Assembly (NCBI GenBank): GCA_027347545.1
Contig: DAIEQT010000217.1
Coordinates: forward strand, 1 to 16,513
Length of the DNA: 16,513 nt
Source: Ignavibacteria bacterium
Lineage (GTDB): Bacteria; Bacteroidota; Ignavibacteria; Ignavibacteriales; Melioribacteraceae
Direction: 5' to 3'
This document shows, in pieces, positions 14,806-16,492 of the stretch. Position 1 is the stretch's first letter. Each line of letters opens with the position of its first letter. Below the pieces are notes generated by a model, which worked only from the letters and a program-made list of their open reading frames with translations, searched no databases and was not told the origin of the DNA. Position numbers and translations under genes: made by a program.

Positions 14806-15678
14806 ATGAAAAACTTTCTTCTTCTAATAGCTATTGCGCTTGGTGTTCTGCTTCCTTACGGGCACGAGTATGTTTTCCTCATCCGCTATTTCTTAATGGT
14901 TCTCCTTTTCTTTTCCTTCCTTGATGTAAGGACCAACAAAGAGGTGATTAAGCAAAGTCATTTTGTAATTCTGGGAACAATCATTTTTACACCGCTTTTG
15001 CTTTTCTATCTCATCAACATTTTCAATCATACGCTTGCTCAGACAGTATTTGTAACAGCAATTGCGCCCACAGCAATAGCGGCGCCGGTAATAATCAGTT
15101 TAAAGAAGGGAAAAGTTGAGTATGTAATGTTTTCGCTGTTGTTAAATAATATTGTTGTCGCGCTGTTAATTCCATTTATTCTTCCGCTCATTGCAAGCGG
15201 TTCTAATCCGGTTTACGTGAGCGATATCCTCTTTCCGGTTCTGGTAACCATTACGGTTCCGTTTGTGTTAGCGCAGCTAACAAGATTCACTCTTCCACAT
15301 ATTTGGAAAAAGTTAGTTGAGTGGAAAGATTCTTCATTCTACATTTTGGTAGCCAACATTTACATAGCAACTTCTGATGCATCTACTTACATCCGCGAGG
15401 AACTAACTTCTAACCTAACAATTGTATTTTTGATTGCCGCTGTTTCCGGTTTGCTTTGCTTATTCTACTTTGGACTTGGCTGGCTAATCGGCGGGAAAAA
15501 TTATCGCACGGAAGCGAGTCAATCTCTCGGTCAGAAAAACAACGCATTCACAATATGGATTGCACTTACATTCATGTCTCCGCTTGCCGCACTCGGTCCG
15601 GTTTTCTACGTTCTCTTTCAAAACACCTACATTTCTTATACGCTCTGCCAGTTCAACAAAAAACTTAATAATGAGTAA
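14806..15678 (+). CDS. BASS-type (bile acid:sodium symporter-like) membrane transporter
   Basis: The 290-residue protein consists of about nine to ten hydrophobic helices from residue 3 onward, with FLDVRTNKEV after the first pair. ASQSLGQKNNAFTIWIALTF near the C-terminus is similar to the conserved cross-over segment of the BASS fold, in which sodium-coupled organic anion carriers and Acr3-like proteins are found. The substrate is unknown. No strong Shine-Dalgarno precedes the ATG; a TTGACA at 14706-14711 in the divergent gap could be part of a promoter. The last residues, CQFNKKLNNE, are unusual for the family. The stop codon TAA (15676-15678) lies inside the first codons of the following transposase gene, whose ATG is at 15671. 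The natural C-terminus may therefore have been trimmed by insertion of the transposase module. Confidence 0.75.
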   Translation: MKNFLLLIAIALGVLLPYGHEYVFLIRYFLMVLLFFSFLDVRTNKEVIKQSHFVILGTIIFTPLLLFYLINIFNHTLAQTVFVTAIAPTAIAAPVIISLKKGKVEYVMFSLLLNNIVVALLIPFILPLIASGSNPVYVSDILFPVLVTITVPFVLAQLTRFTLPHIWKKLVEWKDSSFYILVANIYIATSDASTYIREELTSNLTIVFLIAAVSGLLCLFYFGLGWLIGGKNYRTEASQSLGQKNNAFTIWIALTFMSPLAALGPVFYVLFQNTYISYTLCQFNKKLNNE

Positions 15679-15730
15679 GTATCAAAACAACTATAGAATA
15701 GACTCTACAAGATTTAAAGATTGGGATTAT
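15671..15730 (+). pseudogene. 5' fragment of the RAYT-like Y1 transposase gene
   Basis: Twenty codons from the ATG at 15671 give MSKYQNNYRIDSTRFKDWDY. This is the usual opening of RAYT-like (REP-associated tyrosine) transposases in the Bacteroidota group, which normally continue after WDY within a few residues to a strand of the type YYFVTICTK. Here that continuation is found only about 280 bp further on (WYYVTINTK, from 16016), in the same reading frame. In between lies the GIY-YIG cassette. The frame reads on through the left cassette end to a TGA at 15785. I infer that this is the severed N-terminus of the gene whose main part is at 16004-16492. Confidence 0.75.
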
Positions 15731-15732
15731 TT

Positions 15733-16005
15733 ACCCCGTGAGATAGATTATGAAGTATTACACTTATGTTTTGCAATCAAAGTCTGACAGTAACTTTTAT
15801 GTTGGATATACTAACAACTTAAATAGACGGCTTGAAGAGCATAAAAATGAGAAAGTGCGATCAACAAGGAACAGGCTGCCATTAGAATTGGTTTATTGGG
15901 AAGGATGCTTGAACCAAAGGGATGCAATAAAACGAGAAAAATATTTAAAGAGTTCTTGGGGAAAAAGATATATCAAGAACAGATTAAGTAATTATCTCAC
16001 GGGGT
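15733..16005. mobile_element. GIY-YIG cassette bounded by a perfect 13-bp inverted repeat
   Basis: ACCCCGTGAGATA (15733-15745) and TATCTCACGGGGT (15993-16005) are exact reverse complements; with one mismatch the match extends to 15 bp. They enclose almost exactly one gene, the GIY-YIG frame. The left copy ends 4 bases before its ATG, and the right copy encodes its last residues (YLTG) and the first base of its stop. The cassette sits between the two in-frame parts of a Y1 transposase gene. A small mobile cassette, or a palindromic repeat interrupted by the nuclease gene, would both give this structure. No empty site is in the window. Confidence 0.7.
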
Positions 16006-16007
16006 GA
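15750..16007 (+). CDS. Small GIY-YIG nuclease-superfamily protein
   Basis: The 85-residue protein is a single GIY-YIG domain of the short UPF0213/YhbQ-like kind. The first motif is YTYVLQS (residues 4-10), the second FYVGYTNNLNRRLEEH (16-31) with R27 as the expected catalytic arginine. The conserved glutamate is probably E63 in AIKREKYLK. All core residues appear present, so the fold should be intact. Members are abundant in multiple copies in Bacteroidota and relatives; cellular function is unclear. The gene is framed by the 13-bp inverted repeat and interrupts a RAYT-like transposase gene. Its stop TGA overlaps a GTG that opens the remainder of that transposase (GTGA, 16004-16007), so translation could be coupled. 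A GTGAG in the left repeat is the only ribosome-binding-like sequence upstream. Confidence 0.88.
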   Translation: MKYYTYVLQSKSDSNFYVGYTNNLNRRLEEHKNEKVRSTRNRLPLELVYWEGCLNQRDAIKREKYLKSSWGKRYIKNRLSNYLTG

Positions 16008-16492
16008 ACCTCTGGTGGTATTACGTAACCATAAACACAAAAGATCACAAAGAATATTTTGGTGTTATTAAAAACGAGCAAATGGTTTTAAATGAACTGG
16101 GAAAGGTTGTTCAATATGAATGGGAGAAAACAAAAACGCTTAGACCAAATGTTGATCTGGATTATTTTGTCGTAATGCCTAACCATATACATGGGATAAT
16201 AATTCTAAACGAAATTAATGTAGAGACTTGCCGCGGCAAGTCTCTACAAGAAACTGAAAGAGTGTTTTCAAAGCCAGTAAAAAATTCTTTATCTATAATT
16301 ATCAATCAGTTCAAAGGTTCTGTTAAACGTTGGGCAAATGGAAATTGTTATTCAGATTTCGTATGGCAATCCCGGTTTTACGATCGCATAATCCGTAACG
16401 AAAAAGAACTTTTTAATGTTAGAAAGTATATCGAGCAAAATCCGCTGAAATGGGAGTTTGAGAAAACCCAGCCGGAAAATATTTTTATGTAG
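16004..16492 (+). CDS. RAYT-like HUH/Y1 transposase, main part (5' end displaced)
   Basis: The frame encodes a Y1 (IS200/REP-associated) transposase domain: strand WYYVTINTK, the HUH motif in VVMPNHIHGIIIL (H61 and H63, counted from the GTG), and the C-terminal segment WQSRFYDRIIRNEKELFNVRKYIEQNPLKW, in which Y126 is the likely nucleophile. These enzymes nick single-stranded DNA at palindromic ends and move REP-like or IS200-like elements. The usual N-terminal residues are absent from this frame and found in front of the GIY-YIG cassette, so the gene appears interrupted. The GTG start at 16004 is the only in-frame start codon before the domain and could work by re-initiation after the GIY-YIG gene. 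Between the HUH and tyrosine motifs the frame contains a 30-bp palindrome (16219-16248). The catalytic residues look intact, so partial activity cannot be excluded. Confidence 0.85.
   Translation: MNLWWYYVTINTKDHKEYFGVIKNEQMVLNELGKVVQYEWEKTKTLRPNVDLDYFVVMPNHIHGIIILNEINVETCRGKSLQETERVFSKPVKNSLSIIINQFKGSVKRWANGNCYSDFVWQSRFYDRIIRNEKELFNVRKYIEQNPLKWEFEKTQPENIFM
16219..16248. repeat. Perfect 30-bp palindrome inside the transposase frame
   Basis: The left half TGTAGAGACTTGCCG (16219-16233) is the exact reverse complement of the right half (16234-16248). It is read in frame without a stop, covering the codons for VETCRGKSLQ. It lies shortly after the HUH motif, in a stretch where related proteins vary in length and sequence. 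As RNA or single-stranded DNA it would fold into a 13-14-bp stem, the kind of structure that RAYT enzymes bind. Confidence 0.85.

Follow-up and report, generated by a model that had tools for sequence, protein, structure and literature searches.

Why should a transposase gene be split by a second, much shorter gene enclosed in inverted repeats, and how might so small a unit have arrived there? The question is raised by a window of 16,513 nucleotides, the whole stretch of DNA that was analysed (Ignavibacteria bacterium, assembly GCA_027347545.1, contig DAIEQT010000217.1), in which the gene for a REP-associated Y1 transposase (RAYT) at 15671-16492 is split between its WDY and WWYY codons by a cassette carrying one GIY-YIG nuclease gene. 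Relatives of this cassette in several kinds of gene and in many bacterial groups suggest a very small, widespread mobile element.

The cassette is an insertion in a RAYT gene

The same locus, a symporter gene followed by a RAYT gene, was found without the cassette in two genomes of the same genus (locus L196 in genome G035 and locus L195 in genome G333). These empty orthologous loci run unbroken as GGGATTATTCAACGCC[C/A]TGGTGG, reading ...GATTGGGATTATTCAACGCCCTGGTGGTATTACG... in G035 and ...GATTGGGATTATTCAACGCCATGGTGGTATTACA... in G333, so the split in the window is an insertion. An intact relative of 182 amino acids (P0122), 89% identical to the C-terminal part of the RAYT, has ...WDYSTPWWYYVTI... 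(MSQYQNNYRIDSTRLKDWDYSTPWWYYVTINTKDHEEYFG...), and the WDY N-terminus was present in the uninterrupted RAYT relatives with which the split gene was compared, contrary to an objection foreseen in the initial annotation, that close relatives might naturally lack it. The initial annotation had proposed that a GIY-YIG cassette with inverted-repeat ends splits a RAYT gene whose halves lie in one frame, and had called for a search for empty transposase alleles; the frame, the Pfam matches, the repeat and the empty alleles of G035 and G333 all bear the proposal out. The parts of the locus are:

15671-15730, forward strand: N-terminal 20 codons of the RAYT gene (MSKYQNNYRIDSTRFKDWDY), in agreement with the uninterrupted relatives P0122 and L017 and the empty loci L195 and L196
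15730-15733, forward strand: left tail TTTA (TTYA in most relatives)
15734-15745, forward strand: left arm of the terminal inverted repeat, CCCCGTGAGATA
15750-16007, forward strand: open reading frame (ORF) of the GIY-YIG nuclease, 85 amino acids, its stop codon falling within the right tail
15993-16004, forward strand: right arm, TATCTCACGGGG
16005-16008, forward strand: right tail TGAA (TRAA in most relatives)
16010-16492, forward strand: remainder of the RAYT gene (LWWYYVTINTK...), open to 16492
16219-16248, forward strand: REP palindrome TGTAGAGACTTGCCG/CGGCAAGTCTCTACA, in frame inside the RAYT gene, a host feature outside the cassette

Both RAYT parts share one frame (16004 - 15671 = 333 = 3 x 111), and the upstream frame enters the cassette and terminates at a stop codon at 15785-15787. 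Matches to the family models lie under the curated cut-offs, both for Y1_Tnp in Pfam (C-terminal part; 22.9 bits, cut-off 23) and for REP_Tyr_transpos in NCBIfam (58.4 bits, cut-off 80). The inverted repeat is perfect over 13 bp, as first described, and reaches 16 bp with one mismatch (15730-15745 / 15993-16008); the ends originally placed at 15733 and 16005 delimit only the inner 13-bp repeat, the conserved unit with its tails being approximately 15730-16008 and its core 271 bp. The host's nine bases between GATTAT and TGGTGG are replaced by TTA, this core and TGAACCTC, so that the insertion was not perfectly clean and added two bases beyond the core. The cassette is single in the window's genome (75% complete), where the 11-base arm has two exact sites, both within the window.

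A REP-like palindrome, earlier suggested as the target of the insertion, was not supported. The REP of the RAYT gene lies elsewhere (16219-16248) and is intact; inspection of the empty site shows no REP-like palindrome, and its fold is unremarkable beside that of shuffled sequence (70 nt, z -0.35, matched by 69 of 200 shuffles); and a sample of 395 genomes of the phylum yielded no exact solo palindrome of the form CCCGTGAGAT-N(0-30)-ATCTCACGGG.

The cassette ORF is a GIY-YIG domain (Pfam PF01541, E 1.3e-16), in which Pfam found no separate DNA-binding domain and NCBIfam gave only a weak match to a group I intron endonuclease (21.6 of 56 bits). Residues Y6, Y17, R27, H31 and E63, which we take to be the GIY-YIG active-site residues, are invariant in all 80 rows of the nuclease tree described below. 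By sequence, the closest solved structures are the UPF0213 proteins 1zg2 (1.9e-6) and 1ywl (3.6e-4), with SLX1 a weak match (0.5-0.6).

Related cassettes share covarying arms and tails

Scanning with one genome per species yielded 154 confirmed loci, the best 80 of which were compared together with the window (81 loci), a choice that makes the compared set lean to close relatives. Inverted arms score at least 10 in 72 of the 81 loci and at least 12 in 59, versus 2.9% reaching 10 among composition shuffles (maximum 11). When right arms were swapped in from other loci a score of 10 was reached in 35%, because the arms share a consensus, and covariation is therefore the sharper test. Two of the 72 armed loci (L127 and L128) have arms of unrelated sequence, those of L128 being a small self-palindrome. 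Tails and flanks were read in 71 of the 81 loci, after six with scores under 9 and four lacking a CCC/CCA anchor were dropped, and covariation in 67 of these, with the anchor shifted by one base in the 11 whose first arm pair was not C-G. Over 12 arm positions in the 67 loci, 783 cells pair and 83 covary, versus means of 642 pairing (maximum 672) and 13 covarying (maximum 29) after partners were shuffled.

Pairing continues into the tails, where positions -4, -3 and -1 pair in 54-56 of the 67 loci and position -2 carries a mispair in 52. Where both sides have TT.A, the tail pairs are TTCA/TAAA (21), TTTA/TGAA (16), TTTA/TAAA (4), TTCA/TGAA (1) and others (6), the first two showing that the GIY-YIG gene occurs in either orientation relative to the tails. 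In the 25 bases beyond the tails, the commonest base at any flank position is shared by at most 34 of the 71 loci, fewer than half. Arm type tracks the nuclease tree (54 rows; 10 changes versus a shuffled mean of 19.3 and minimum of 17), and rows with CCC/CCA arms span 13 named phyla. Of the 70 tree rows with a phylum, 35 are from Bacteroidota. Together with the empty same-genus loci, these relatives with covarying arms at many unrelated sites support the proposal that a minimal mobile cassette inserted into the transposase gene.

GIY-YIG copies without such repeats, which the initial annotation had regarded as a potential objection, do occur. Of 20 additional loci from the phylum with an identity of about 49% or higher, 15 have arms scoring at least 10 and the other 5 fall short; in a set of 13 GIY-YIG genes further removed (less than about 49% identity: L053-L056, L058-L062 and L002-L005, four of them in the window's genome), none has CCC/GGG arms. 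The objection holds for the distant proteins only, and the arms mark a clade rather than all GIY-YIG proteins of this type. The viral contigs gave 0 exact matches to the window's arms, and plasmids and phages yielded one weak protein match each, under 40% identity.

Several other repeats and arrays were seen in the course of these comparisons. Single solo CCCGTGAGAT/ATCTCACGGG palindromes occur in L101 and L126, both from other phyla; the one in L126 (2486-2518) forms a hairpin in another stem of a cassette-bearing RNase P RNA. Short palindromes, their arms equal or similar to those of the cassette, directly adjoin it in L101 (1190-1236) and L091, the join reading GGGGTTCACCCC. A flavobacterial arm, GCACATAAC, was considered as a dispersed repeat and rejected (0 of 11 genomes). 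In the window's genome, two distant GIY-YIG genes (L004 on contig C312, L005 on C421) lie between other inverted repeats (11 bp perfect, and 16 bp with one mismatch, respectively) and perhaps represent other cassette families. Tandem arrays of GIY-YIG genes were also present, at G236:C1:120135-122165 (exact 450-bp period, five copies) and G132:C1:1384628-1385510 (exact 323-bp period, three copies).

Filled and empty alleles and an independent transfer

Two loci named as different families of Rhodothermota (L065 and L067) carry cassettes identical at 273 of 273 bases, between flanks that are 82% identical over 108 bp upstream (to the contig end) and 79% identical over about 260 bp downstream, identity dropping directly outside the left tail and 24 bases beyond the core on the right. 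As judged from this comparison, the pair demonstrates one transfer of the cassette independent of its host gene.

In one genus, each of eight genomes has one match to RNase P RNA, which carries a cassette in three and is empty in five. The site is a hairpin, presumably P3, between GGGTAATCGC (GGGTGATCGC in two genomes) and GGAGGAAAGTCC, and the 19-24-bp arms of the cassette stand in for the native stem. In the filled genes Infernal sets the 5' end of the RNA inside the cassette; by eye, the true 5' part lies upstream of it. The RNase P RNA of a Parcubacteria metagenome-assembled genome (L126; 91.9 bits, under the gathering score of 100 bits) also bears a cassette. In another genus, putative orthologous loci of an S23-type gene read ATGGA-TAATA-T.GC when empty (CAACA in place of TAATA in one) and ATGGA-cassette-T.GC when filled (five filled and five empty sequences read, of 30 loci fetched). 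A further locus, L135, at first called RNase P RNA by eye, was rejected as such, having no Rfam match and flanks that read as an S23 gene.

Cassettes appear to recur at the same motifs of homologous host genes

The transposase of the window is one host among several gene families, which comprise tyrosine recombinase, S23 four-helix, GxxExxY, HATPase/AlbA and RAYT genes, alongside RNase P RNA. The flanks of 70 loci gave 121 pieces of at least 30 amino acids, with Pfam matches (counts from 25 of 46 families) to Phage_integrase (22), 23S_rRNA_IVP (PF05635; 14), HATPase_c_4 (4), PDDEXK_3 (4), YhcG_C (3), SLFN_AlbA_2 (3), Y2_Tnp (3), Bro-N (3) and DUF1016_N (2). NCBIfam matches lay above the cut-off for GxxExxY in L102, L105 and L113 and for the IS91 transposase in L130, and under it for RAYT in L063 and L083 and for DinD in L071 and L077; the RAYT label of L067 comes from BLAST to RAYT relatives (1.7e-6 among 120 proteins).

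Read by eye, the points of entry recur. S23 genes were entered between NI[AV] and.G in Bacteroidota, Ignavibacteriota, Myxococcota and Bipolaricaulota; three loci of two phyla (Bacteroidota and Cloacimonadota) were entered between I and N..HRDY; DinD/BRO-like genes between NM[FL] and.EA in Bacteroidota and Chlorobiota; GxxExxY genes near the junction of VY and.EA in four Bacteroidota, L105 having also lost host sequence; and recombinase genes repeatedly after LLGH and between RHS and FATH. On this reading, same-site recurrence crosses phyla for the S23, HATPase/AlbA and DinD/BRO-like hosts and is seen within Bacteroidota for GxxExxY; RAYT genes were entered at no fewer than three positions.

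The nuclease tree was built from 80 of 83 candidate rows (three under 70 amino acids were excluded), 55 with a host label and 46 with both host and phylum. On these 46 rows, host gene family required 9 changes, where shuffled labels averaged 26.2 and never fell under 22, and phylum required 15, where they averaged 18.9 with a minimum of 15; by this measure the tree follows host gene family rather than phylum. The rows nearest to the window by path (L065, L067 and L063) are all in RAYT genes, at two other positions.

Net insertion lengths could be estimated where host codons were readable (33 loci, 32 of them counted, L139 lacking an anchor). Relative to the intact host, the bases beyond the CCCC...GGGG core numbered +4 in 15 loci, +3 in 5, +5 in 5, -5 in 3, +2 in 2 and +6 in 2. 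Anchors and spacings were set by eye, six with a one-base shift; L105, whose host is partly lost, was excluded; and intact host lengths derive mostly from the codons of homologous proteins rather than from true empty alleles. A mode of +4 would fit roughly four bases contributed by the element at a T-rich TTNA(A) site, and no exact rule is claimed. A simple 4-bp target duplication was rejected, since identical 4-base flanks occur only in L102, L132 and L135 of 71 loci and net lengths vary.

How the cassette may move

The cassette has inserted, belongs to a family with covarying arms and invariant presumed active-site residues, and, as read by eye, recurs at the same motifs of homologous genes across lineages. 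What kind of element behaves in this way? We favour, with a probability of about 0.58, a small mobile cassette of approximately 270-300 bp, one GIY-YIG gene between reverse-complement arms and tails, of an intron-less homing type, on account of the pattern of site use, the transfer and the invariant nuclease residues. The GIY-YIG enzyme would cut the empty target at or near the T-rich TTNA(A) motif, and repair would copy the cassette into the break, amounting to homing without an intron or intein; the arms and tails would define the ends of the unit. The arms may also fold, so that insertion into a structured RNA such as RNase P would be tolerated, and they probably help in this; host protein genes, by contrast, seem to be simply broken, as is the RAYT gene in the window.

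A number of observations weigh against this homing interpretation. The window's genome holds one cassette and at least two uninterrupted RAYT paralogues (L017 and L019), so any homing there is not efficient. RAYT hosts use at least three positions, all irregular (+2, +3, +6, +6 and +5), unlike classical homing to one site, and net length varies too much for every locus to be explained by one fixed target duplication or one fixed cut. Arms fall below a score of 10 in nine of the 81 loci, including all three from Planctomycetota. The tree is short and offers little resolution, with stars on only 8 of its 76 inner branches; epimerase and RNase P hosts group weakly on it (21 and 25 of 500 shuffles, respectively, score as low); and its clustering by host family could arise partly from joint transfer of host gene and cassette. 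Host labels were assigned by eye, DinD scoring 17.8 and 15.8 bits versus a cut-off of 242 and L067 having no NCBIfam match.

We also consider, tentatively, that the cassettes form a separate class of autonomous DNA element, in which an 85-residue GIY-YIG nuclease and a covarying-arm hairpin with mispaired tails would suffice for movement into structural-RNA loops and conserved codons of other mobile or accessory genes, across 13 or more named phyla. If so, they would, in our judgement, be one of the smallest kinds of self-moving DNA element, and the first whose ends a GIY-YIG enzyme recognises. Because the ends are hairpin-like and occur in either orientation, the main rival holds that the cassette is carried passively, as a hairpin mobilised in trans by a Y1/HUH transposase (IS200/IS605- or RAYT-type), with arms folding in single-stranded DNA and insertion 3' to TTYA on either strand; the nuclease would then merely aid retention or homing, as has been proposed for TnpB in IS605 elements. 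The near-palindromic ends with their recurrent tail mispair (52 of 67), the modal net insertion of core +4 (15 of 32), the two orientations of the GIY-YIG gene (21 versus 16) and hosts that include RAYTs and an IS91 transposase fit such a mechanism. However, the arms lack the GTAG tag and bear no likeness to the REPs of the window's genome, and the absence of exact solo palindromes from the 395 sampled genomes of the phylum sits poorly with elements moved in trans, which often leave many empty copies; invariance of the presumed active-site residues (80 of 80 rows) also weighs against it. We regard trans-mobilisation as unlikely, and the earlier suggestion of a Y1 enzyme gained no support, the tag being missing and the 11-base arm confined to its two sites in the window.

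Less likely again is a structure-selective nuclease (SLX1/UPF0213-like) acting on hairpins or cruciforms, whereby the element would swap into existing hairpins and sequence-specific homing would be secondary. The similarity to 1zg2 and 1ywl, with SLX1 weak, and the replacement of a native RNase P RNA hairpin by cassette arms agree with this, but the empty RAYT site of the window folds no better than shuffles (z -0.35) and most hosts read are protein genes, entered at conserved codons. It is quite improbable that the cassette is excised from the transcript or passed over by the ribosome, leaving the host functional as an intron or bypassing element would: although both halves are open in many hosts, the arms pair the two cassette ends and the sole RNase P RNA match carries the cassette in three of eight genomes, Rfam places no intron over the cassette in the loci scanned, net insertion length differs modulo 3 so that no single splice rule restores the frame, and open host halves may mean young insertions only. 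A group I or II intron was rejected on the same Rfam result, the lone intron match (L080:3612-3715) lying about 1.3 kb off. Chance juxtaposition of an ordinary GIY-YIG repair-type gene with two hairpins is consistent with the 13 distant genes that lack CCC/GGG arms (four in the window's genome), but the arms in 72 of 81 loci, their covariation and the empty alleles leave it scarcely credible, and for the insertion itself the empty alleles refute it.

Relation to known systems

Homing nucleases of the GIY-YIG type are mostly encountered in introns or as free-standing genes of phages, and intron-less GIY-YIG homing endonuclease genes are of the phage type. The cassette resembles the latter in its GIY-YIG nuclease, its filled and empty alleles and its spread at conserved sites, and differs in being a single domain of about 85 amino acids with covarying arms and tails that interrupts the host ORF. 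As in homing endonucleases, a nuclease domain with its presumed active-site residues intact is accompanied by filled and empty alleles of one locus. With REP/RAYT and IS200/IS605 systems it shares hairpin ends, insertion near a T-rich tetranucleotide and the lack of a long target duplication; unlike IS200/IS605, its own gene is GIY-YIG and no Y1 enzyme is encoded, and unlike REPs its arms carry no GTAG tag and are not repeated in the window's genome. Terminal inverted repeats recall DDE-type insertion sequences or miniature inverted-repeat transposable elements, from which the cassette departs in having no fixed-length target duplication (net extra -5 to +6, mode +4, 32 loci). The 23S rRNA intervening sequences, which encode the IVP/S23 protein, are likewise small ORFs in a long hairpin tolerated in a structured RNA; the cassette protein is different, and the S23 gene is itself a frequent cassette host (14 of 121 flank pieces, PF05635). 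Single-domain GIY-YIG proteins of the UPF0213/YhbQ type are sequence relatives of the cassette protein (1zg2, 1ywl), and the 13 more distant GIY-YIG genes differ from the cassette clade in lacking CCC/GGG arms.

No description of cassettes with this GIY-YIG/inverted-arm layout was recognised in searches of open-licence PubMed Central papers, as judged largely from titles and abstract openings. The nearest antecedent found is a set of GIY-YIG ORFs in 16S and 23S rRNA genes of the candidate phyla radiation (CPR), in insertions that match neither intron type and are sparse and at several sites (PMC11270868); that article places its GIY-YIG ORFs outside spread by homing. On its description, the likeness lies in a GIY-YIG protein within a non-intron insert, the cassette too occurring in a Parcubacteria RNA (the RNase P RNA of L126), and the cassettes differ in lying chiefly in protein-coding genes, in coming half from Bacteroidota and in their covarying arms and recurrent motifs. 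The main text of PMC11270868 gave no hit for an inverted repeat or palindrome, and a search of the GIY-YIG superfamily paper (PMC1564403) gave none for palindromes, inverted repeats, COG2827 or UPF0213.

A GIY-YIG family that belongs neither to introns nor to phage genes, is bounded by arms, occupies RNase P RNA, transposases and recombinases, and has an empty allele within the genus offers a testable system for the movement of a 270-bp element. It may also account for many small 'GIY-YIG nuclease' or 'putative endonuclease' annotations, and for broken integrase, RAYT and S23 genes, in metagenomes.

Surroundings of the RAYT gene

The RAYT gene sits at the 3' end of a sodium/bile-acid-type symporter gene (window 15586-15664), 79 bp of which recur, 91% identical, after the RAYT on contig C438 (L016:125-203), a contig whose overlap with the end of the window is exactly 141 bp. 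It is as if the insertion had brought a copy of the gene end, and G035 has the same layout. Similarly, cassettes occur at the start of sugar-epimerase genes in L142 and L137, where part of the gene start is repeated across the cassette (in DNA for L142, in the protein reading for L137). The REP palindrome of the window (16219-16248) is perfect and encodes NVETCRGKSLQ, a peptide common to RAYT relatives (P0122, P0123 and variants), and near copies of the palindrome lie at nine other places in the window's genome. In the RAYT orthologue of G035 (L196), part of the gene is replaced by two inverted GTAGAGACGA-type REPs, forming a REPIN-like unit.

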